This document shows positions 1-8,553 of a stretch of DNA of 8,553 nt, one piece after another (position 1 is the first letter of the stretch; every line of letters starts with the position of its first letter). A model generated the notes under the pieces. It saw only the letters and a list, made by a program, of their open reading frames with translations, was not told the origin of the DNA and searched no databases. Source of the stretch: Bacillota bacterium (GTDB lineage: Bacteria > Bacillota_A > Clostridia > DSM-8532); assembly GCA_023424865.1 (NCBI GenBank), contig JAFADM010000066.1, positions 1 through 8,553 of the forward strand, read 5' to 3'. Made by a program: the position numbers and the translations under genes.

Positions 1-2
1 GC

Positions 3-1253
3 ACTGTTTTCAGATGCTCCTGCCCAAGCCGACAGTTTCCCTGCAAGCATACCCTGGGCCTTATGTATGCCTATGCCGGCGGCAAAGCCTTTACTTCCGC
101 AGAGCTTCCGTCTGAACTGGCGGAAAAACGGGAAAAGGCGGAAAAAAGGCAGGAAAAGCAGCAGGAAAAACAGGAAAAGAATAAGACGGATGAGGCTGAG
201 AAGCCTAAAAAGGTTAATAAAAGCGCTCTGACAAAGAAAATTAAGACACAGCTGGAGGGCCTGGAGCTTCTTGAAAAAAACACTTATTCCATTGTCCAGT
301 CCGGTCTTGGCACGCTTAATATTAAATCCCTAAAGCTTCTTGAGGAGCAGGCAAAGCAATTGGGGAACTATTATGTTCCCGGTGCCCAGAATGCTTTAAG
401 AGAGCTTATTGTACTCTTTGACAGCACGGAAAATCCTGAAGCCGTTTACACTGAGGCGATGGATTGCCTTACCCGCCTCTATGCACTGTGCAAGAAAGGG
501 AAGGAGTACTTAAATAAACGGCTGGAGGATCCTGAACTGCCGCCGGAAACCGACACCTCTTTGATGGAATGGCTTGGCCATGCCTGGCAATTATCGGAGC
601 TTAAGGAAATGGGCAGGGTGGAAAACGATGCGGAGCTCCTTCAGCTCTCCTTCAATTCTTATTCCAATGAAGCCAGGCAGGAATACGTGGATGTGGGCGT
701 CTGGCTCAACCTGAAAACCGGTGCCATTGTGGAAACCAGAAACTACCGGCCTTATAAGGCGGCCAAATACATCCGTGAGGACGATTCCTTCTTTTCGGTT
801 GTAAAGCTTCCCGAGATGTATATTTATCCCGGCGACATGAATCCGAGAGTCCGTTGGGACACCATGACGGTACGTGACGTTGAAAAGGAGGATTATCTGA
901 AGGTGAAAAGCTTTGCACCCGCCTCCCTCCAGGATGTTATAAAATCAGTAAAGAATCAGATAAAAAATCCTCTTTCAGCCAAATACCCTGTTGCGCTTAT
1001 TCGTTATGAAGGTATTGGCAGAGTAGGAGAAGAGCTTGTGGCGGAGGGCGCGGGAGGCCAGCGTATTATCCTGAAGGACCTTCCGGGACAGATGGAGCCT
1101 CCTGTTATGAATCTGCTTCATCTTATAACAAAGGATAAGCTCAAGCAGCAGGTGATGGTAGTCCGCTTTCACAATGACATGGATGCAGGGAGACTCTATG
1201 CCCATCCCTTAAGCATCGTGACGGATACCGGCCTAATACGTTTGAGTTATTAG
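3..1253 (+). CDS. SWIM zinc-finger family protein, 5'-truncated by window edge
   Basis: This is the C-terminal 416 residues of a SWIM zinc-finger protein. The frame is open from the left edge through a TAG stop at 1251-1253. The ATG at 63 is not the start, because in-frame codons before it encode CSCPSRQFPCKH (bases 15-50), a perfect CxCx(n)CxH SWIM zinc ligand set. After it comes a strongly charged Lys/Glu/Gln linker (bases 120-221), probably helical or coiled-coil. A globular C-terminal region follows, with segments such as NYRPYKAAKY and IYPGDMNPRVRW. SWIM domains bind DNA or proteins in known families; which applies here is unknown. Bacterial SWIM proteins of this type often sit beside MoxR and VWA genes, as here, and E. 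coli YehQ is a probable relative (recalled). It is likely a cytoplasmic recognition or scaffold subunit of the downstream ATPase system. The SWIM call is firm; the role is inferred. Confidence 0.88.
   Translation, partial: TVFRCSCPSRQFPCKHTLGLMYAYAGGKAFTSAELPSELAEKREKAEKRQEKQQEKQEKNKTDEAEKPKKVNKSALTKKIKTQLEGLELLEKNTYSIVQSGLGTLNIKSLKLLEEQAKQLGNYYVPGAQNALRELIVLFDSTENPEAVYTEAMDCLTRLYALCKKGKEYLNKRLEDPELPPETDTSLMEWLGHAWQLSELKEMGRVENDAELLQLSFNSYSNEARQEYVDVGVWLNLKTGAIVETRNYRPYKAAKYIREDDSFFSVVKLPEMYIYPGDMNPRVRWDTMTVRDVEKEDYLKVKSFAPASLQDVIKSVKNQIKNPLSAKYPVALIRYEGIGRVGEELVAEGAGGQRIILKDLPGQMEPPVMNLLHLITKDKLKQQVMVVRFHNDMDAGRLYAHPLSIVTDTGLIRLSY
120..221 (+). repeat. Lys/Glu/Gln-rich low-complexity coding stretch
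   Basis: Imperfect short tandem units of the type CAGGAAAA / GCGGAAAA, clearest at 122-180, encode an EKREKAEKRQEKQQEKQEK segment just after the SWIM motif. The DNA is almost entirely purine on the plus strand apart from single C or T positions. It is most simply a flexible or coiled-coil linker that could vary in length between strains by slippage. Confidence 0.6.
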
Positions 1254-1267
1254 TGGCTTATAGCTGA

Positions 1268-1302
1268 GAAGCGCTTGGTTAAGTTGTTTTATCGGTGCTT
1301 CG
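1268..1302 (+). promoter_or_regulatory. Possible leader stem-loop upstream of HEAT-repeat gene
   Basis: GAAGCGC (1268-1274) can pair with GGTGCTTC (1294-1301) as a stem of about seven pairs including one G-U pair, with a loop of about 20 bases. The left arm also contains the perfect palindrome AAGCGCTT (1269-1276). No T-tract follows, so it does not look like a terminator. It lies in the 93-base gap between the SWIM and HEAT genes, the longest spacer in the cluster. Function is unknown and pairing strength is moderate. Confidence 0.3.
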
Positions 1303-1314
1303 TATCAATTGGAT

Positions 1315-1332
1315 TGCGGGTAAAAGCCCGCA
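1315..1332 (+). promoter_or_regulatory. Hairpin abutting the ribosome binding site of the HEAT-repeat gene
   Basis: TGCGGG (1315-1320) and CCCGCA (1327-1332) form a perfect six-pair, GC-rich stem around the loop TAAAAG. The stem ends two bases before the Shine-Dalgarno sequence AGAGGTG. It is not followed by a T-run, so a terminator is unlikely. It could protect the mRNA end after processing, or modulate access to the ribosome site. Confidence 0.45.
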
Positions 1333-1334
1333 TT

Positions 1335-1341
1335 AGAGGTG
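1335..1341 (+). promoter_or_regulatory. Ribosome binding site fixing the start of the HEAT-repeat gene
   Basis: AGAGGTG lies five bases before ATG 1347. It selects that ATG over the in-frame TTG at 1275, which would place the two leader hairpins inside coding sequence and add 24 residues unlike the rest of the protein. Confidence 0.75.
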
Positions 1342-1346
1342 AAAAA

Positions 1347-3128
1347 ATGAGTATTCCATTAGTCATAGAAACACAGAGTGAGGTTCGGCGGCTCCTGATT
1401 GCGGGAAGCAGTCTGGCCGCGGGAGATTACAGGCTTAAAAAGCTTCTGCCTCAGATGCAGAAGGCCGGGGAAGCGGTTCCCGTTTTCAAGCGTATTGCAG
1501 AAGCCCTGGAAAAGGTTATTGTCTCGGAAAATGAAGCCCTGCCGGAAAAGCTTCTGGAGCTTGCCAATTTAGTAAATGCCGTTCTCTATACCCAGGGGAA
1601 AACCGGCGTCGATGGCCCCCTTGAGGAAATTGAAACAGCGGGCATGGCTTTTATGACTTCTATTCCTTACCGCAGGCTGAAGCCTATTATTGAGGCTCTT
1701 ACCACCAAGGGGGCAGGAAGGCTGGAAATTATCAGCTCAGCCCATAAGGACGGAATTTTTAAGGATTTAAGGCTTTTAAGGCCATTGGTATACGCTCTTG
1801 ACACCAATAACTTTCCGGAAATAAATGATTTGCTTGTAAACATTACGGAGAGTCTTGGCGTTGCTGCCGTGCCCATTTTAAAGGAAGGCTTTGACTTTAA
1901 AGGCGGTAAGGCTTATGCATGCCGTCTGGAGCTTATTTCAAAGCTTTCTGGAAAGAATGAAGCTTCCTTTATAACACGGGCAGTGGAAGAGGGCAGTGAT
2001 GAGGTACGGGTAAGCGCGGTAAAAGCGCTGAAAGACTTTCCCGAATATGAAGCTTCGCTTTTGGAGCTTTCAAAGGAGAGAAAGAAGGATATCCGGGAAG
2101 CCAGCCTCATTGCCCTTGCCCATATTGACAGTGAAGCGGCTGTGAAAAAGTTTTATGAGGCTTTTTACGGCAAGGACAAAGAGCTCGTTTTAAAGCCCCT
2201 TCAGGATAGTCGTACAACGGGCGTAGTTAATATGCTGCTGGAAGAAGGGGAAAAGTATCTGGCATCCTTTACAAGAACTGATAAAGGGCTGAACCTGTTT
2301 GCGAAAAAGGAAGAGCCTGTGGAGGATGATACAGTGAACGCTTTTGCAGCAGTCCTTTTTTGCCTGGAAGGTAAAAAAGATAGAGCTGTTTTTGACTTTT
2401 TATCAAGCTGTCTGGACCAGACAAAGAGCTTGCTCAAGTACAAGGCCATGTCCTTAAAGGGTTATGTGGGTGAAATCACCCTGGCACGGCTGGCAGCACG
2501 AGCCATGATACGGATTGAAACACGGGAAGCCTTTGAGGTACTGGACCAGGTTCAGGCAAAATTCGGCCCCGCTGTATTAGCCTATTCCTTTGAAGCGGCT
2601 TTGAGGAGCATGGAGCATGAATATGTGTATAACCGTTATTCAGGTTATGGGAAAAACGGCAGAAGATCCGATGAGGGAAAGCAAATTTTTACCGTAATGG
2701 ATCGCTATGTCCAGAGTGAGGATCTTAAGTGGGATCCCCGCTGGTTGCGGGTACTCATGGAAAAGAAGGAAGTGAAGCTGTTTTGCTCGCTTCACAACAA
2801 AGAGAATACCAGCTCGCTGTATGTTAAATTTCTTTTGAAAGAGCTGGAAACCGCAAACGATTTTAACTCCACTCATTTTGAGCCTATCATTAATAGCCTT
2901 ATTGATGTGTCTTATCCGGACATTACGAACGTTATCCTTCAGGCTGTGGAGTTTAACTTTAAAAAGGCAAGCGCCTATTCCAACTACTATCTGGACCATT
3001 ACGGAGAAACCTTCAGAAGGCTTCCCGCCGAAGCTGCCGGGCCTTTAGAAGAATTCGCAGCACGTTACAATACCGATGCGGCTCAAAAGCTTATAGCCAT
3101 AGCCCAGGACATAAAAAACAAAGCTTGA
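1347..3128 (+). CDS. HEAT-repeat-like alpha-helical protein of the MoxR/VWA cassette
   Basis: This encodes a protein of 593 residues with start ATG 1347, preceded by AGAGGTG, and stop TGA. It is predicted almost wholly alpha-helical. Residues about 177-273 contain successive helix pairs of HEAT type, for example DEVRVSAVKALKDF followed by KDIREASLIALAHID, with the Ala/Leu spacing and Asp/Arg positions typical of HEAT repeats. No signal peptide, membrane segment or catalytic motif is evident. The rest may be degenerate helical repeats, since Leu/Ala-rich pairs continue to the C-terminus. HEAT solenoids are protein-protein scaffolds, so here it likely docks a substrate or links the SWIM protein to the ATPase complex. 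Its place between the SWIM gene and the MoxR gene (33-base gap) supports membership of the same operon. It may correspond to the DUF5691-type proteins found beside such cassettes, but I cannot confirm that family name from sequence alone. Confidence 0.8.
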   Translation: MSIPLVIETQSEVRRLLIAGSSLAAGDYRLKKLLPQMQKAGEAVPVFKRIAEALEKVIVSENEALPEKLLELANLVNAVLYTQGKTGVDGPLEEIETAGMAFMTSIPYRRLKPIIEALTTKGAGRLEIISSAHKDGIFKDLRLLRPLVYALDTNNFPEINDLLVNITESLGVAAVPILKEGFDFKGGKAYACRLELISKLSGKNEASFITRAVEEGSDEVRVSAVKALKDFPEYEASLLELSKERKKDIREASLIALAHIDSEAAVKKFYEAFYGKDKELVLKPLQDSRTTGVVNMLLEEGEKYLASFTRTDKGLNLFAKKEEPVEDDTVNAFAAVLFCLEGKKDRAVFDFLSSCLDQTKSLLKYKAMSLKGYVGEITLARLAARAMIRIETREAFEVLDQVQAKFGPAVLAYSFEAALRSMEHEYVYNRYSGYGKNGRRSDEGKQIFTVMDRYVQSEDLKWDPRWLRVLMEKKEVKLFCSLHNKENTSSLYVKFLLKELETANDFNSTHFEPIINSLIDVSYPDITNVILQAVEFNFKKASAYSNYYLDHYGETFRRLPAEAAGPLEEFAARYNTDAAQKLIAIAQDIKNKA

Positions 3129-3161
3129 GTTATAAAATATAAAGAAACAGGAGAGTGTCAT

Positions 3162-4262
3162 ATGTCTGAAAACACTGTAAGCAGCAAGGTGTTAAGATTA
3201 ACTGCCGAACAGCAGTATAAGCATGAAATAGAAGCCCTCATTGCCAATGAAAAGGATTGGGTGCCTAAGGGCTGGCAAATGTCTCCCCGATCTGTCCTTA
3301 CCTATATTACGGGAGGGAAGACAGGCGGTGTAACCGTTTCACCCAAATACATCGGAAATAAAAGATCGGTAGAAATTGCCATATCTACACTGGTTACAGA
3401 TAGGGCCCTGCTTCTTATAGGTGAACCCGGAACAGCAAAATCCTGGCTCTCAGAGCACCTGACAGCCGCCATACACGGCGACTCCACAAAGGTGGTTCAG
3501 GGAACGGCAGGTACCACAGAGGAGCAGATTCGTTATTCCTGGAATTATGCCATGCTTCTGGCAAATGGCCCTACTGAGGAGGCTCTGGTTAAAAGCCCTA
3601 TTTACAAGGCCATGGAATGTGGGGGGATTGCCCGTTTTGAAGAAATCTCCCGGTGTGCCTCCGAGGTTCAGGATGCCCTCATTTCCATTCTGTCTGAAAA
3701 GCGGATCTCCATCCCGGAGCTTGGTACCGAATTAGCCGCAAACAGGGGCTTTTCCATCATTGCAACAGCGAACACAAGAGATAGAGGCGTCAACGACATG
3801 TCCTCGGCCTTAAAGCGGCGCTTTAATATTATTGTGCTGCCCACGCCGGGAGATATTGATACGGAAATTGCCATTGTACGCAGGAGAGTTAAGGACCTAG
3901 CAGCCGGTCTTGAGCTAAAGGCCGCACTTCCTGCCGACGAAGCCCTTATTAAAGTGGTGACCATTTTCCGTGAGCTCAGAAGCGGAGCCACTTTGGACAG
4001 CAAGGAGAAGGTAAAGTCACCCAGCGGCGTTATGTCCACCGCCGAGGCCATTTCCCTTTTAGCCAACAGCATGGCACTGGCGGCAAGCTTTGGCAACGGC
4101 AAGGTTACCAGCCAGGATATTGCCGCAGGCCTTCAGGGAGCCATTGTAAAGGATGAGGACAAGGATAAGCTGGTTTGGAAGGAATACATCGACAATGTTT
4201 TAAAGAAGCGCGGTTCGGAATGGCGTGATATGTACAATGCATGCAAGGAGATGAACGGGTGA
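3162..4262 (+). CDS. MoxR-type AAA+ ATPase
   Basis: This encodes 366 residues, with ATG 3162 preceded by AGGAGAG (3149-3155). The AAA+ core is clear. Walker A is GEPGTAKS (residues 87-94, catalytic K93). The Walker B region is GGIARFEEI (154-162), where the acidic pair is Glu-Glu (160-161) instead of the more common Asp-Glu. Sensor 1 is in TANTRDRG (N204). SALKRRFN (215-222) supplies the arginine-finger region, and a helical lid follows to the C-terminus. MoxR ATPases hydrolyse ATP in hexameric rings and remodel or activate client proteins, usually with a VWA-domain partner. One is encoded two genes downstream. E. coli YehL is the likely functional counterpart (recalled). The last four bases overlap the next gene, implying coupled synthesis with the DUF5682 protein. 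There is no signal peptide, so it is cytoplasmic. The family is firm; the client is unknown. Confidence 0.93.
   Translation: MSENTVSSKVLRLTAEQQYKHEIEALIANEKDWVPKGWQMSPRSVLTYITGGKTGGVTVSPKYIGNKRSVEIAISTLVTDRALLLIGEPGTAKSWLSEHLTAAIHGDSTKVVQGTAGTTEEQIRYSWNYAMLLANGPTEEALVKSPIYKAMECGGIARFEEISRCASEVQDALISILSEKRISIPELGTELAANRGFSIIATANTRDRGVNDMSSALKRRFNIIVLPTPGDIDTEIAIVRRRVKDLAAGLELKAALPADEALIKVVTIFRELRSGATLDSKEKVKSPSGVMSTAEAISLLANSMALAASFGNGKVTSQDIAAGLQGAIVKDEDKDKLVWKEYIDNVLKKRGSEWRDMYNACKEMNG
4245..4250 (+). promoter_or_regulatory. Ribosome binding site inside the ATPase gene, setting the DUF5682 start
   Basis: AAGGAG ends eight bases before GTG 4259. It supports the GTG start in the GTGA overlap over the in-frame ATG at 4241, which precedes this site and has no purine-rich site of its own. 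The arrangement is typical of translational coupling. Confidence 0.75.
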
Positions 4263-6613
4263 TAAGGACGGAAAAAACGCCCCATGTTTTCGGAGTCCGG
4301 CATCTGTCTCCGGCAGGCGCTTACCATTTGCTTCACTATTTGGACGAGGTAAAGCCCACCGCCGTCTTAATTGAGGGCCTGTCGGATGCCAATTCCCAGC
4401 TTGAGCATTTCACCTCCGGCGACGTGGTTCTTCCCATAGCCATACTGGCTTACACCGAAGAGCTTCCTGTAAGGACGCTGCTTTACCCTTTTGCGGAGTA
4501 TTCGCCCGAATACCAGGCCCTGATATGGGCTAAAAAGAACGGCAGCCATGCGGAGTTTATTGATCTTCCCTCGGATATTTCCATTCCCATGGATTACTAT
4601 ATAAAAGAAGAAGCGGTGGAAGAAGAAAATTCGGAAGAAGAAAAGGATAAAGAAAAAGCGAAGGAAGAAAAGACAGCAGGAGAAAAGACCAACGGGGAAT
4701 TAAAGCCCACCCGGGGCTCAATCTATGAAAAATGGGCCCGGCTTGCCGGTGAGGAAAACTATGATTCCTATTGGGAATACTATTTTGAGCATAACCTGAA
4801 CGAGGATGCCTACAGGCTGTCGGCTTTGGAGCTTGGAAAGGCTTTAAGAGAGCTTTTTTATGACAATCCGGTGGAGCAGGCCAAAAACCTTATTCGTGAG
4901 GGTTATATGCGAAACCGTATTCAAAAGGCTTTGGAAAAAGGACATGTAGCGGATAAAATTGTGGTTGTTACCGGTGCTTATCATGCTTCGGTTTTAAATT
5001 TGGACATTGAGCCCTTAAGCGACGAAGAAATTGAAAAGCTGCCCCGGGTAAAAACCCGGCTGACTTTAATGCCCTATTCCTACTACCGTTTATCCTCCCG
5101 CTCAGGCTACGGTGCGGGAAACAATGCTCCGGCCTATTACGGCATGATGTGGGAAAGCCTTATGAAAAAGGATTTTTCCAAGCTTCCTGCCGCTTATCTC
5201 ACAAAGGTTGTTTCCCACCTCAGGGAAAGCGGAACCTACCGCTCCTCTGCCGATGTCATTGAGGGCATTCGGCTTGCAAATGCACTGGCTGCACTGCATG
5301 AAGGAACAGCCCCTGTCCTTGCGGATTTGAGGGATGCGGCAGTTACCTGCCTGGGTCATGGGGAGCTGTCCATTGTGGCGGAGGCGTTGGCCCATACTGA
5401 GGTTGGAACAGCCATCGGAAGCCTGCCGGAGGGGGTGAGCCGCACCTCCATTCAGGACGATTTTTACCGCCAGCTCAAAAGGCTTAAACTGGAAAAATAT
5501 AAAAGTGTGGTGGCCATGGATCTGGACCTGGATTTGCGTGAAAACCGAAGGGTACAATCCCAGGAGGCAGCCTATCTGGATCTGAACCGGTCAAGCCTTC
5601 TTCATCGGCTTAAGGTTTTGGGAATTTCATTTCAACAGCTTAAGCAAAGCAACCAGCAATCCGCCACCTGGGCGGAAGCCTGGGTTCTAAGATGGACGCC
5701 GGAAGCGGAAATCGAGCTGGTGGAATCCACACTTCGGGGGGAAACCATTGAGCTGGCAGCGGCTTTTGAGTTTAAGGAACGCCTGGAGAAAAGCAGCAGC
5801 ATTGATGAAGCGGCGCGGATTATAAGGGAAGCCTGTGAATGCGGCATGACCGAATCCATGGAGCAGGCCAGGATAGCTCTTCAGAGGCTTGCTGTGGATT
5901 CCGGTTCCTTTAATGAGATTGCATCGGCGGCCTATGACCTTTCCACTGTCATCCATTTTGGCGATATCCGGCGCTTTGATTCGTCCCAGCTGATTCCTCT
6001 TTTGCAGCAGCTTTTCTTACGGGGAGCTCTCATTTTGGAGGAGTCGGCCAAATGCGACAATAACGCGGCTAAGGTGATGCTGGAATCCATTCACAGAATG
6101 AACCTCATTTCTTTGGAGCATTTTTCCATCGTGGATGAAGCCCTCTGGATTGAAAGGCTGACAGGTCTTTCCGACTCGGATGACCGTAATCCCCTTTTGT
6201 CCGGCTATGCCTGCTCCATTCTTCTGGAGCGGAATATCATCGATAACGATAAAATTGCCCAGGAGGTGTCCAGGAGATTGTCTCCCGGAATTGAAGCGGA
6301 TCTTGGCGCAGGGTGGTTTGAAGGCTTGTCCATGAGAAACCGTTATGCCCTGCTTGCGCGGCTGAACCTGTGGGAGCTTCTGGACAATTACGTAGCCTCC
6401 CTGGACGAAGAGCAGTTTAAGCGGGCTCTGGTCTTTCTCAGAAGAGCTTTTGGCGATTTCGGACCACCTGAGAAACGGAATATCTGCGAGAACCTGGGTG
6501 AAATATGGGGTGTGGGCAAAGAAAATGCCGACGACCTATTGAGCCGGGAACTTAATGAGGAAGAACAGCAAAACCTTGACGAACTGAACGATTTTGATTT
6601 TGGAGATATTTAG
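4259..6613 (+). CDS. DUF5682 family protein (YehM-like), partner of the MoxR ATPase
   Basis: This is a protein of 784 residues from the GTG start at 4259. A start at ATG 4241 would add six residues but lacks a ribosome site. The N-terminal block HVFGVRHLSPAGAYHLLHYL (9-28), the PTAVLIEG segment ending in E39-G40, and VVVTGAYHASVL (235-246) match my recollection of DUF5682 proteins. The His, Glu and Gly-x-x-His pattern also resembles the TraB/Tiki/ChaN/EreA enzyme superfamily; that link is inference. A Glu/Lys linker spans about 116-152. The C-terminal half (about 430-784) is helical and ends with an acidic tail, FDFGDI. No signal peptide or membrane helix is seen. It overlaps the ATPase gene by four bases and abuts the VWA gene, so it is likely a stoichiometric component of the ATPase-VWA complex. 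It may be an enzyme or a large adaptor; biochemical activity is unknown. E. coli YehM is the probable analogue. Confidence 0.85.
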   Translation: MIRTEKTPHVFGVRHLSPAGAYHLLHYLDEVKPTAVLIEGLSDANSQLEHFTSGDVVLPIAILAYTEELPVRTLLYPFAEYSPEYQALIWAKKNGSHAEFIDLPSDISIPMDYYIKEEAVEEENSEEEKDKEKAKEEKTAGEKTNGELKPTRGSIYEKWARLAGEENYDSYWEYYFEHNLNEDAYRLSALELGKALRELFYDNPVEQAKNLIREGYMRNRIQKALEKGHVADKIVVVTGAYHASVLNLDIEPLSDEEIEKLPRVKTRLTLMPYSYYRLSSRSGYGAGNNAPAYYGMMWESLMKKDFSKLPAAYLTKVVSHLRESGTYRSSADVIEGIRLANALAALHEGTAPVLADLRDAAVTCLGHGELSIVAEALAHTEVGTAIGSLPEGVSRTSIQDDFYRQLKRLKLEKYKSVVAMDLDLDLRENRRVQSQEAAYLDLNRSSLLHRLKVLGISFQQLKQSNQQSATWAEAWVLRWTPEAEIELVESTLRGETIELAAAFEFKERLEKSSSIDEAARIIREACECGMTESMEQARIALQRLAVDSGSFNEIASAAYDLSTVIHFGDIRRFDSSQLIPLLQQLFLRGALILEESAKCDNNAAKVMLESIHRMNLISLEHFSIVDEALWIERLTGLSDSDDRNPLLSGYACSILLERNIIDNDKIAQEVSRRLSPGIEADLGAGWFEGLSMRNRYALLARLNLWELLDNYVASLDEEQFKRALVFLRRAFGDFGPPEKRNICENLGEIWGVGKENADDLLSRELNEEEQQNLDELNDFDFGDI
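4604..4714 (+). repeat. Glu/Lys-rich low-complexity linker, polypurine DNA
   Basis: This stretch encodes a highly charged segment such as EEENSEEEKDKEKAKEEK inside the DUF5682 protein, between the N-terminal alpha/beta block and the next conserved part. The DNA is a long GAAGAA/AAAGAA-type purine tract with very few pyrimidines. It is likely a disordered or single-helix spacer and a candidate for length variation between strains. Confidence 0.6.
5044..5059 (+). other. Intragenic hairpin CCGGGT-AAAA-ACCCGG
   Basis: A perfect six-pair stem with an AAAA loop lies within the DUF5682 coding sequence. Its core CGGGTAAAAACCCG differs at one base from the core of the hairpin before the HEAT gene (1317-1330). 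It encodes the PRVKTR part of the protein, so coincidence under coding constraint is plausible. No function is assigned. Confidence 0.3.
6602..6605 (+). promoter_or_regulatory. Ribosome binding site of the VWA gene, inside the DUF5682 gene
   Basis: GGAG lies seven bases before GTG 6613 and ten before ATG 6616, so both starts are possible. The stop TAG of the upstream gene falls directly between this site and the ATG, a layout that allows terminating ribosomes to reinitiate. Confidence 0.55.
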
Positions 6614-6615
6614 TG

Positions 6616-7824
6616 ATGTTGGAAAACACCCAGTTAAAAAGATGGCGGCTTATTCTGGGCAGCAGTGCCCAGGAGGCGCTTGAAGGCTTTGACCCCGAGG
6701 GATTAAGGCTTGACTCGGATGAGCTTATTATGGATGAAGCCCTGGCCGCCATTTACGATAAATCCACAGATGGTCAGGAAACGACCGGCAGCTCCAATCA
6801 ACGCTCCGGATCCCGGGCGGCGGGTTTGGGAGCCTCTTCGCCCAAGCTGGCAAAGTGGCTTGGGGATATACGCACCTTTTTTTCAGAGGATGTGGTATCG
6901 GTGATTCAATCCGATGCCATTGAGCGGAAAGGCCTCTCCCAGCTTCTGTTTGAGCCGGAGGTGCTTAAAAATGTCCAGCCGAGTATTGAAATGGTGGCAA
7001 CCCTCATGTCGTTAAAGGGCAAGATCCCTGAGCGAACAAAAGAAACGGCAAGGCAGTTGGTGGCAGCGGTTGTAGAGGAAATCAACAAAAGGCTGGTCAA
7101 TGACATACAAAGAGCGGTGACCGGTGCTTTGAACAAAAGACAGCATTCGCCCACTCCCAATGTGGCGAGTATCGATTGGAAGTATACCATCCGTCGAAAC
7201 CTTAAAAACTATAACCTTCAGCATAAAAAAATCATACCTGAAAGATTCTATTTTTTTGACAGGGCCAAACGAAGCAACCATTGGAATATCATTCTTGATA
7301 TGGATCAGAGTGGTTCCATGGCCAATTCCATTATTTACGGCTCCATTGCAGGCTCAATTTTTGCCAGCATGCCGGCATTGAATACCAGGATTGTGGCCTT
7401 TGATACTGAAATTGTGGATTTAAGCGAGCAATACGATAACGATCCTGTGGATATGCTGTTTGGTATTCAGCTGGGAGGGGGAACGGATATCAATAAATCC
7501 GTGGCCTATTGCCAGCAGTTTATCACCGACCCCTCCAAGACGCTGTTTATCCTTATTTCCGATTTGTACGAGGGCGGAAATCAGGCCTCCCTGGTTCGGA
7601 GAATGGAGGAAATGGCAGAATCAGGGGTTAAGGTGGTTTGCCTGCTCGCTCTCTCGGATAATGGAGCGCCCAGCTACGACGAAGGCCTGGCCCGCAGATT
7701 AGGCCAGCTTGGCATCCCCTGCTTTGCCTGCACCCCCGCGCTGCTTCCGGAGCTTTTGGAGGGTGCGCTCAAAGGCAGGGATCTCAATGAAATTGCTGCC
7801 GCATTAAAGTCAAAGAAGGCATGA
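6616..7824 (+). CDS. VWA domain-containing protein (CoxE/YehP-like), MoxR partner
   Basis: This encodes 402 residues from ATG 6616. The adjacent GTG 6613 would add one residue and overlap the preceding stop by one base. The N-terminal half is mostly helical, with a Gly/Ser-rich linker near residues 56-75 and a KWLGDIRTFF block. A VWA domain follows from about residue 223. Its MIDAS is complete: DQSGS (230-234), the threonine of GGGTD (T290) and the aspartate of ISDLYEGG (D316), so metal-dependent ligand binding is expected. No signal peptide or transmembrane helix is seen, so it is probably cytoplasmic. VWA proteins paired with MoxR ATPases typically serve as adaptors or substrates of the ATPase. 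Here it ends the tightly coupled three-gene core. E. coli YehP is the probable counterpart (recalled). The domain call is firm; the ligand is unknown. Confidence 0.92.
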   Translation: MLENTQLKRWRLILGSSAQEALEGFDPEGLRLDSDELIMDEALAAIYDKSTDGQETTGSSNQRSGSRAAGLGASSPKLAKWLGDIRTFFSEDVVSVIQSDAIERKGLSQLLFEPEVLKNVQPSIEMVATLMSLKGKIPERTKETARQLVAAVVEEINKRLVNDIQRAVTGALNKRQHSPTPNVASIDWKYTIRRNLKNYNLQHKKIIPERFYFFDRAKRSNHWNIILDMDQSGSMANSIIYGSIAGSIFASMPALNTRIVAFDTEIVDLSEQYDNDPVDMLFGIQLGGGTDINKSVAYCQQFITDPSKTLFILISDLYEGGNQASLVRRMEEMAESGVKVVCLLALSDNGAPSYDEGLARRLGQLGIPCFACTPALLPELLEGALKGRDLNEIAAALKSKKA

Positions 7825-7865
7825 GAGGAAGATTTTAAGGGAGCCTGGTATTTTTGTTTAACCTG

Positions 7866-7874
7866 AAGGAGAGG
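7866..7874 (+). promoter_or_regulatory. Strong ribosome binding site for the 101-residue protein
   Basis: AAGGAGAGG is a near-ideal Shine-Dalgarno sequence; its AAGGAG core ends six bases before ATG 7878. It excludes the in-frame TTG at 7854, which lies upstream of this site. Confidence 0.8.
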
Positions 7875-7877
7875 GAT

Positions 7878-8183
7878 ATGATTTTTATTGGAGAAATACG
7901 GGAGCACATTAAAGATAACAGCCTTCCATCAATTTGGGATCTCATAAATAAGCCCGTCAGAGAAAAAGAAAAAGTACTCAGATACATGAAAAAATGCTCT
8001 GTTGATGCAGTGGCTCCGGCTATTGTCCGGGATGTTATTAATCCTGAAAAGAGAATTCCGGAGCTCTTCTTGATGTCGGATGGTACTTATGGCTGGCGTT
8101 CAGATGTGATTTATTATGTGGAGAAATACGACATGGCCCTTCCGGAGGAATTTGTGCGGCATGTGCTGAGCAAGGTTAAATAA
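7878..8183 (+). CDS. Hypothetical small protein, unrecognised family
   Basis: This encodes 101 residues starting at ATG 7878 behind a strong ribosome site and ending at TAA. I do not recognise a named family. It is soluble, with no signal peptide or membrane helix. An amphipathic N-terminal part (IGEIREHIKDN) is followed by DLINKPVREKEKVLRYMKKC. A distinctive C-terminal block contains SDGTYGWRSDVIYYVEKY (67-84) and then LPEEFVRHVL. The aromatic and charged pattern SDG-Y-WRSD-YYVE looks like a conserved signature. It lies 53 bases after the VWA gene and 73 bases before an ADP-ribosyltransferase-like gene, all in the same direction. It could be an immunity or antitoxin partner of that protein, or an accessory subunit of the MoxR cassette. 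Both ideas rest on context only. Confidence 0.75.
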   Translation: MIFIGEIREHIKDNSLPSIWDLINKPVREKEKVLRYMKKCSVDAVAPAIVRDVINPEKRIPELFLMSDGTYGWRSDVIYYVEKYDMALPEEFVRHVLSKVK

Positions 8184-8203
8184 ATCGCAATAAATGCTAT
8201 GGA

Positions 8204-8219
8204 AGGGCAAATATGCCCT
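8204..8219 (+). other. Small intergenic hairpin before the ART-like gene
   Basis: AGGGCA and TGCCCT form a perfect six-pair stem with an AATA loop, in the 73-base gap after the 101-residue protein. No T-tract follows, so it is not a typical rho-independent terminator. It may be an mRNA processing or stability element, or a weak attenuator separating the last gene from the operon. Confidence 0.4.
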
Positions 8220-8239
8220 CTGAAGCTAAACCTGAAGAC

Positions 8240-8247
8240 AGGAGGAG
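8240..8247 (+). promoter_or_regulatory. Ribosome binding site for the ART-like gene
   Basis: AGGAGGAG ends nine bases before ATG 8257 and is the strongest ribosome site in this part of the window. It supports the frame starting at 8257 over the overlapping frame that starts at 8213, which has no comparable site before it. Confidence 0.7.
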
Positions 8248-8256
8248 TGAGGTTAA

Positions 8257-8553
8257 ATGGATTTTGAAATTAATTCGGGGGGCGTATGGTATCACGGCTC
8301 CAATCGGCTCTTTAGCATCCTGGAGGCAGGAAGTACCATCACCCAATGGGATAAGCTGGCGGAAGCTTTTTCACATAAGCCTGCCGTACTCTGCATCGAT
8401 GATGACGGATCAATCGTTCATAATGGCAAGGAGTACGGCTATTTGTATATTATTGATGAACCTGTTGTAATGGACGCCGATATTTATCACCATCCCAGGT
8501 CCAGCATGGGTAAGAATCTTGAATTTCTTACAAAGCGTGAATTAAAGGTAAAG
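8257..8553 (+). CDS. ADP-ribosyltransferase-like (Arr-like) protein, 3'-truncated by window edge
   Basis: An open frame from ATG 8257 reaches the right edge without a stop (99 codons visible). The translation has a layout I associate with small ADP-ribosyltransferase-fold proteins such as Arr. These are an early YHGS (12-15, His13 as candidate NAD-binding residue), LEAGSTIT (22-29), an AFSHKP segment (37-42), a strand GYLYIIDEP (61-69) matching the 'IYIVEP' strand of Arr enzymes, and a terminal TKRELKV (92-98). If correct it would transfer ADP-ribose from NAD+ to a target, or be a related 2'-phosphotransferase-like fold. The substrate is unknown. There is no signal peptide. The protein probably ends shortly past the window. 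It sits after the unrecognised 101-residue gene and may form a pair with it. The existence of the gene is well supported; the fold assignment is inference from pattern only. Confidence 0.7.
   Translation, partial: MDFEINSGGVWYHGSNRLFSILEAGSTITQWDKLAEAFSHKPAVLCIDDDGSIVHNGKEYGYLYIIDEPVVMDADIYHHPRSSMGKNLEFLTKRELKVK

Follow-up and report, generated by a model that had tools for sequence, protein, structure and literature searches.

What does a set of five adjoining genes encoding a SWIM zinc-finger protein, a HEAT-repeat protein, a MoxR-family AAA+ ATPase, a DUF5682 protein, and a VWA protein do in a bacterial cell? Such a set fills positions 3–7824 of an 8,553-nucleotide stretch of DNA from a Bacillota bacterium (contig JAFADM010000066.1, positions 1–8,553 of the forward strand; hereafter, the window) as five collinear open reading frames (ORFs) on the plus strand, an arrangement first proposed from the nucleotide sequence and borne out by the ORFs together with their Pfam matches. 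The original prediction regarded the set as a dedicated ATP-driven complex in which the SWIM and HEAT proteins recognize a target. This interpretation was broadly right in proposing a dedicated unit and a target-recognizing helical protein, but it was unspecific. Because the YehL subfamily of MoxR proteins is known and the published ternary MoxR-vWA systems are not defined by DUF5682 or SWIM proteins, the set is classified here as a YehL-type cluster with a helical partner different from that of Escherichia coli and with DUF5682, of which no mention was found in the open-licence PMC literature, as its third component. Our preferred reading, to which we assign a rough probability of 0.45, is that the set encodes a YehL-type machine of two modules that serves intracellular surveillance or quality control, with DUF5682 as a hydrolase.

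Relatives of the set were collected by scanning one genome per species, which yielded at least 567 stretches with a DUF5682 relative; the best 80 were analysed, and these are close relatives, mostly from Paenibacillus, rather than an unbiased sample. All five genes occur in the same order and on the same strand in 71 of the 80 loci, which places the gene order far beyond chance. Seven of the other nine reach contig ends (L009, L015, L028, L051, L054, L064, and L079). Median intergenic gaps range from −43 to +19 bases (frames taken from the first start), and the flanking genes are not shared, the commonest neighbour family being present in just 11 loci. The five proteins have correlated pairwise distances (0.78–0.96 over 73 sets: the window, L008, and the 71 loci), a correlation to which shared species history contributes. 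The nearest named relatives among the matches listed are from uncultured Clostridia, Pseudobacteroides, and Acetivibrio, and the five families are linked also in Bacillota, Planctomycetota, a Verrucomicrobiia contig, and Fusobacterium, the last of which (L008) has a five-gene order identical to that of the window. Two kinds of fusion into one frame were identified, namely SWIM with DUF5691 (a helical protein discussed below) in Hymenobacter and DUF5682 with VWA in Streptomyces and one planctomycete, supporting neighbour contacts between the SWIM and helical proteins and between DUF5682 and VWA.

Co-occurrence was assessed separately, in a panel of 119 genomes from the phylum of the planctomycete Limnoglobus roseus (G006; locus L087), in which DUF5682 was detected in 14 genomes at 1e-3; the 13 over the cut-off were counted. 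Window-type SWIM proteins were found in seven genomes, the full-length HEAT type (E < 1e-40) in four, and strong DUF5691 matches (E < 1e-20) in three, and all of these genomes lie inside the 13 (hypergeometric 3e-8 for SWIM and 9e-5 for HEAT); the HEAT and DUF5691 thresholds were chosen after the results were known. DUF5691 was detected in nine genomes at 1e-3 and in four over its cut-off, the fourth (G217) lying outside the 13. HEAT matches at any strength occurred in 75 genomes, all but four at E 1.7e-12 or weaker; only these four were taken for HEAT partners, since the weaker matches are mostly short and lie over the repeats. DUF4132, another helical family, was present in 17 genomes, five of them inside the 13. 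In one genome (G182), SWIM and DUF5691 genes are adjacent to each other and lie ~345 kb from DUF5682, which has MoxR and VWA neighbours; this layout suggests two modules, one for recognition and one serving as a motor.

Linkage across phyla, the two fusions, and the separate panel support the dedicated functional unit that had been proposed, and the gene-neighbourhood check laid out with that proposal gave collinearity in the 71 loci and, in the panel, the opposite of rare co-occurrence. Some findings weigh against our preferred reading: L018 contains a MoxR-DUF5682-VWA trio only, with SWIM and HEAT unmatched, and L065 contains DUF5682 alone, with no partner match nearby; moreover, DUF4132 is present in 12 of the 119 panel genomes that have no DUF5682, and in two of the five genomes that have both (G202 and G239) it sits only on contigs other than that of DUF5682. 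That the five genes are chance neighbours, or are kept together for transcriptional convenience without joint function, is nevertheless very improbable, being already disfavoured by the 71 loci, the co-occurrence panel, and the fusions, as well as by the retention of the SWIM-DUF5691 pair in G182 at its great distance from the trio.

Beyond this phylum DUF5682 is rarer. Of 149 genomes from the phylum to which the Pseudobacteroides genome belongs, three have it, that genome included; of 118 from the phylum of a Desulfococcaceae genome, six have it, namely that genome and five more that match the first ~90 profile positions only; and of 14 control genomes, two have it. Fourteen stretches were read more widely: 10 contain MoxR, DUF5682, and VWA, one contains DUF5682 alone, and three, from partial-match genomes (L125–L127), contain no trio, the MoxR and VWA models being unmatched in them. 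Five loci from the phylum of G005 (L109–L113) encode proteins of ~600–720 residues that match the DUF5682 start only, and the three that were read have P-x-L-H, not G-x-R-H. One planctomycete genome (G007) carries three DUF5682 genes (L088, L117, and L118), each near MoxR and VWA genes; in L117, DUF5682 and VWA share one frame.

The likeness to E. coli yehL/M/P/Q pointed out at the outset holds, and the window set is a relative of that cluster. Both share the MoxR, DUF5682, and VWA order and a SWIM gene, with identities of 40, 25, and 35% over the aligned parts of the MoxR, DUF5682, and VWA proteins, respectively. In E. coli, however, the SWIM gene comes last, and DUF4132 and WGR-DUF4132 proteins stand where the window has HEAT; no DUF4132 was detected in the window by profile. 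Other layouts are DUF5691-MoxR-DUF5682-VWA with a SWIM-like frame upstream (Rhizobium), SWIM-DUF5691-MoxR-small gene-DUF5682-VWA (Deinococcus), DUF4132 genes-MoxR-DUF5682-VWA-SWIM (E. coli and Iodobacter), and a DUF5682-VWA frame preceding a protein that matches SWIM below the cut-off (Streptomyces). WGR-DUF4132 adjoins the trio in a second Pseudobacteroides copy (L114) and in a planctomycete-phylum genome (L123), and in L115 (Bacillota phylum) DUF4132 and SWIM are placed after the trio. DUF4132 is treated here as variable rather than defining, since DUF5691 is the partner in Rhizobium, Deinococcus, and Hymenobacter.

At the thresholds given above, HEAT, DUF5691, and DUF4132 were never found together in one DUF5682 genome of the panel (four, three, and five of the 13, respectively; G205 has none). 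On these sequence grounds, the helical partner is exchangeable, being HEAT, DUF5691, or WGR-DUF4132, so that HEAT, which is indeed present in the window, is one of three alternative partners rather than a fixed component. The three types were also considered as one homologous family, which profile comparison did not support: the HEAT-DUF5691 probability was 24 or 3.5 depending on direction, and that of DUF4132 was below 1. Weak DUF5691 matches occur in five of nine HEAT relatives (P0152, P0157, P0150, P0160, and P0162; E 1.9e-6 to 6.7e-4), on the HEAT repeats only, and one of them is over the cut-off. Since the three types are not convincingly homologous, the grounds for placing them in a common slot are position and mutual exclusion, which counts against the exchange of partners that our reading supposes.

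The helical protein is also the fastest-changing of the five, with a mean pairwise identity over the 73 sets of 37%, compared with 77% for MoxR, 67% for VWA, 60% for DUF5682, and 53% for SWIM, and with a slope of 3.7 against MoxR. Being exchangeable and the fastest-changing part, it is a candidate target recognizer. Target recognition by SWIM and HEAT proteins had been suggested for this set; the share of the helical protein in it is supported, indirectly, by these two properties. In the window, this proposed recognition subunit is encoded at 1347–3128, where the start is most likely ATG 1347 and not TTG 1275, Met1-Ser2 being invariant in 12 aligned rows. Its HEAT_2 repeat stretch (1971–2183; residues 233–303 of the frame counted from 1275) matches Pfam below the cut-off (22.8 vs. 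27.7 bits), whereas relatives are above it (27.9 and 31.7 bits for the two copies in L030 and 30.0 bits for P0122), and many homologues carry PF13646. In L030, two HEAT genes lie in tandem between SWIM and MoxR (5139–6965 and 7111–8913), and the copies are 90% identical, with a more divergent second half. The YehQ-like SWIM zinc-finger protein (3–1253; PF04434, 21.7 bits against a cut-off of 19.6; aligned with 11 relatives) has lost its 5′ end at the left edge of the window and is ~66 residues short compared with that of L011. Its CxCx6CxH finger (12–74; residues 4–24) is intact, the three Cys and the His being 100% conserved in 73 sequences; conservation of this and the following motifs of the SWIM, MoxR, and VWA proteins was measured in 73–82 aligned sequences, with the window included.

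The MoxR and VWA proteins form the presumptive motor, and the complete AAA+ motifs and the complete metal ion-dependent adhesion site (MIDAS) described for them at first reading are kept in 78 and 80 aligned sequences, respectively. The ATPase (3162–4262; AAA_5, E 2e-38) is nearer to YehL of E. coli K-12 (40% identity, 233 bits) than to RavA (24 bits), these being the two of seven MoxR subfamilies that the comparison covered. It contains a Walker A motif, GEPGTAKS (3420–3443; 97–98% per position), a Walker B region, RFEE (3633–3644; E160 and E161, 100%), and an Arg-Arg pair, R219-R220 (3816–3821; 100%), a candidate arginine finger. The YehP-like VWA protein (6613–7824) is of the CoxE type (VWA_CoxE, E 2e-47), with 35% identity to K-12 YehP (245 bits) and 22 bits to ViaA; its MIDAS consists of DxSxS (7303–7317; D231, S233, and S235, 100%), Thr291 (7483–7485; 91%), and Asp317 (7561–7563; 100%). 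YehL has been described as one of the seven MoxR subfamilies (PMC3893208). The MoxR-VWA pair is common to RavA-ViaA as well, despite the low scores. The nearest solved relatives of the MoxR protein are Midasin and NorQ, and cryo-EM of NorQ-NorD places a VWA finger inside the AAA+ pore, supporting ATP-driven twisting (PMC13036017). NorQ-NorD, CbbQ-CbbO, and CoxD-CoxE share with the window an AAA+ ring plus VWA protein and presumably the same finger-in-pore mode of work (PMC13036017), whereas the window set has no recurrent client gene nearby and adds hydrolase-like and recognition proteins.

The DUF5682 protein, which is YehM-like (4259–6613; PF18934, E 2e-146), most likely starts at GTG 4259, judging from the sequence, where it overlaps the MoxR stop. 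Its first ~260 residues contain, in order, GxxH, VLIEG, FIDLP, RExxM, and GAxH motifs, and this N-terminal part (4259–5050) was compared by profile with the TIKI superfamily (TraB, EreA, and ChaN), the catalytic residues of which have been described (PMC6254334), using TraB (11) and ChaN (12) sequences drawn from elsewhere in the same genomes and, as controls, shuffled and reversed sequences and other families. With 18 N-domain sequences, the scores were 39.5 for TraB (probability 61.9) and 38.4 for ChaN (62.6), the best of 50 shuffles giving 20.0 and 24.8, respectively; with the whole protein, the probabilities were 40.5 and 71.7. A set of 51 sequences with <65% identity, including those of E. 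coli and Streptomyces and three divergent partial-match proteins, scored 58.7 with TraB (probability 92.8; best of 60 shuffles, 17.6) and 48.0 with ChaN (83.9; best of 60 shuffles, 22.7), alongside 17–20 for MoxR, VWA, and SWIM as other-family controls and 53.8 (93.5) for TraB against ChaN as the positive control. Nineteen very diverse sequences gave 47.5 (87.3) for TraB and 38.6 (66.6) for ChaN, the best of 40 shuffles being 20.2 and 17.1. At a permissive setting, 235 columns were registered with TraB and 191 with ChaN, and the GxxH, Glu, Arg motif, and last GxxH of DUF5682 coincide with those of TraB, in order.

Within the set of 51 sequences, H15 of GVRH, the first GxxH (4301–4303), E39 of VLIEG (4373–4375), and D102 of FIDLP (4562–4564) are present in 50 of 50 readable sequences (H15 with one gap), Arg213 in 51 of 51 and Glu214 in 50 of 51 within RExxM (4895–4900), H242 of GAYH, the second GxxH (4982–4984), in 51 of 51, and E84 in 47 of 50. 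The profile similarity thus covers the catalytic core together with H15, E39, the basic R213, and H242; the second catalytic Glu may be represented by E84, D102, E177, or E214. It therefore appears highly likely, as a matter of judgement from these alignments, that the N-terminal domain belongs to the TIKI/TraB/EreA/ChaN superfamily, and DUF5682 is probably a hydrolase, with catalysis likely. The DUF5682-like protein of the original prediction is confirmed in this respect and refined, by profile, to a predicted enzyme of this superfamily. It differs from the known members in its ATPase partners, in a long C-terminal part (5051–6610), which is covered by PF18934 alone with other matches below the cut-off, and in lacking a Glu at the second position upstream of the first His. 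Several points weigh against the assignment. The probabilities shift with the alignment (40.5 to 92.8), and default local alignments span only 31–92 columns, end-to-end registration requiring the permissive setting. Nor does DUF5682 have the Glu that precedes the first His by two positions in Ere and ChaN, though the TraB sequences used lack it too; ChaN-type members need not be hydrolases. In addition, no significant sequence relative of DUF5682 was found in the PDB (best E 0.09 and 0.48), and the fold assignment rests on profile alignment.

The ChaN resemblance also bears on an alternative in which the set matures a metalloenzyme or cofactor, the MoxR-VWA pair inserting a metal as CoxD-CoxE and NorQ-NorD do and DUF5682 acting as a ChaN-like metal or haem carrier, not as a hydrolase. 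The CoxE type of the VWA protein and the presence of NorQ among the solved MoxR relatives fit this idea, as does the WGR-bearing E. coli molR product, which possibly acts in molybdate metabolism (PMC8533742); in the same source, however, molybdate-metabolism genes such as moeA and moeB are without differential expression. Furthermore, no metalloenzyme or other family recurs beside the set beyond 11 of the 80 loci (neighbour families being identified in part), and a partner that is exchangeable and hypervariable would not be expected of a housekeeping inserter. Metal maturation is therefore considered unlikely, and a surveillance or quality-control machine with a hydrolytic DUF5682 is preferred.

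The E. coli cluster allows the constancy of the motor and the variability of the helical proteins to be compared within one species. Among 5426 E. coli genomes, yehM was matched in 5284 (at least 80% of the gene in 5166), yehQ in 5310 (5269), and yehI in 5283 (5177), a gene match being no proof of an intact gene; placements were chromosomal in 5289 of 5291 cases for yehM and 5323 of 5325 for yehQ. In 11 chromosomes hand-picked from spread listings (L155–L165), the cluster is flanked by metG and yehR. Mean identities were 98.9% for YehL (n = 11), 98.0% for YehP (9), 96.6% for YehM (10), and 96.1% for YehQ (12), compared with 91.5% for the yehI product (11) and with 99.5 and 99.6% for the flanking MetG (11) and YehR (12). 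The WGR-DUF4132 proteins average 65% identity (14 proteins from 10 strains), with 84% at the WGR end, 40–61% at residues ~76–750, then 70–90%, and 67–74% in the tail; they split into two groups ~47% apart, the second of which adjoins yehI in nine strains with allele groups differing at 72–81%, and in L158 the first group takes the position next to yehI. The corresponding region of K-12 carries the annotations yehF and yehH, the latter a pseudogene. The ratio of nonsynonymous to synonymous polymorphism (pN/pS; four to eight strains each) was 0.05 for yehL, 0.08 for yehP, 0.13 for yehQ, 0.15 for yehM, 0.26 for yehI, and 0.02 for metG, and 0.27 and 0.37 for the two WGR-DUF4132 groups, in which synonymous differences of 0.25–0.35 are near saturation or stem from recombination. 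The low pN/pS and high identity of the motor genes indicate that selection preserves the motor even as the helical protein changes.

General hypervariability of yehI was considered and set aside, since in none of the 5285 matched records does the matched DNA fall below 90% identity, a figure obtained with megablast, which leaves diverged blocks unmatched. The yehI of E. coli GN25 (L157:17578–21222) is strongly mosaic: residues ~400–600 show 25–47% identity to three strains, the next hundred residues 70–75%, and the remainder at least 89%. Among the 12 closest pairs profiled of the window-type HEAT protein, no mosaic blocks as stark as these were found. An essential role is disfavoured, since annotated breaks occur in yehI, yehM, or yehP in 5 of the 11 chromosomes (L156, L157, L158, L164, and L165), and L156 has no annotated yehL either. 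The breaks are frameshifts, stops, or truncations, extending to yehK in L158, and such recurrent loss stands beside strong purifying selection elsewhere. Two Shigella sonnei lineages are without a ~7-kb stretch holding yehM and yehL (PMC12795559).

These patterns invite the alternative that the set is a dedicated anti-phage or inter-bacterial conflict system, in which a variable helical receptor would detect invader molecules and DUF5682 would be an effector harming the invader or the host. A mosaic, hypervariable recognizer beside a constant motor in E. coli, the one or two WGR-DUF4132 genes that ten E. coli strains have besides yehI, and the tandem HEAT copy of L030 would all fit, and other MoxR-VWA sets have been proposed as conflict systems (PMC7159879). 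The ternary systems of that study (VMAP, iSTAND, FtsH, and beta-propeller) likewise have MoxR and VWA at their core, joined by one further constant component and by variable parts, but the third component in the window, DUF5682, is none of the four published, and SWIM, yehL, and DUF5682 do not occur in the main text of that paper (PMC7159879). No Pfam match over the cut-off to VMAP, iSTAND, FtsH, or the vWA-fused beta-propeller was found in the five proteins, VMAP having been sought via libraries only, and the bpMoxR model scored 23.0 on the window MoxR against a cut-off of 27. The near-universal and almost entirely chromosomal presence of yehM and yehQ in E. coli and the strong purifying selection on yehL run counter to a conflict system; the best PADLOC-DB 2.0.0 matches in the window scored 10 and 16 bits, none of eight relatives had a match at E ≤ 0.01, and a defence-island pattern was not seen, though no systematic test was made. 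A conflict system is thus rather unlikely, and surveillance or quality control of intracellular targets remains our preferred reading.

Spread by phages or plasmids was likewise considered and rejected: the candidates were one 'phage' record (L006) and 36 PLSDB records, several of them chromosome-sized, and two scans of viral contigs found no relative of the set. L006 (MT835988, 'Bacteriophage sp.', UNVERIFIED) carries MoxR-DUF5682-VWA beside bacterial-looking genes and is likely a bacterial contig filed as phage. The PLSDB 'plasmid' records NZ_OL790811, NZ_CP141089, NZ_CP084075, and others are 2–5 Mb and chromosome-like, and CP088875 carries the yeh-bts region, which is chromosomal in the other strains read.

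The WGR and SWIM domains raise the further alternative of a DNA-damage or stress-response remodeller of protein-DNA complexes, SWIM and WGR being the parts that would bind nucleic acid. In Deinococcus radiodurans, a WGR protein and a DUF4132 operon are strongly upregulated when DdrO, the repressor of the damage response, is depleted (PMC8533742), and yehQ and yehH are included in the gene table of a multi-stress study (PMC9501238). The D. radiodurans genes are, however, not known to lie beside MoxR-DUF5682, and the window proteins have no WGR match in Pfam; such a remodeller appears quite improbable.

In the two-module machine that we favour, the recognition module would comprise the SWIM zinc-finger protein, as a constant adaptor, and the large helical protein that it serves (HEAT here; DUF5691 or WGR-DUF4132 elsewhere), which would bind a specific target, while the effector module would comprise the MoxR AAA+ ring, its VWA partner, and DUF5682. 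Target binding would couple the modules and recruit or free the MoxR-VWA motor. The MIDAS of the VWA protein would clamp an acidic residue of a client, the MoxR ring would twist the VWA protein by ATP, as proposed for NorQ-NorD, and open or load DUF5682, and DUF5682 would then cleave the bound target or a regulatory protein. The physical complex, the direction of coupling, the hydrolysis, and the nature of the substrate are what we infer beyond the alignments.

Two further plus-strand frames lie downstream of the VWA gene (7878–8183 and 8257–8553). Neither gave anything over the cut-off in Pfam, NCBIfam, or PADLOC, and neither has a relative in 88 loci; with neither library matches nor recurrence, these frames are probably unrelated to the operon, and the VWA gene is most likely the last of the set. 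Promoter- and terminator-like sites in the window showed no clear excess over shuffles, and no Rfam match was found.

The yeh cluster is near-universal in E. coli, the best-studied bacterium, yet a search of the open-licence PMC literature brought up only passing mentions of yehL, yehM, yehP, and yehQ. With a likely active site (H15, E39, D102, R213, and H242) and a probable sensor now named, what was a set of 'unknown function' becomes testable. If the hydrolase reading is true, a protease-like effector would be added to the MoxR-VWA family, and the recognition proteins carried by the set would be explained. More tentatively, and with considerable doubt, the set may add another to the published four classes of MoxR-VWA surveillance system: one in which an exchangeable or hypervariable helical receptor and a SWIM adaptor would trigger an ATP-gated cytosolic TIKI-type protease, DUF5682, and of which one version would be present, unrecognized, in ~95–97% of E. 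coli genomes.

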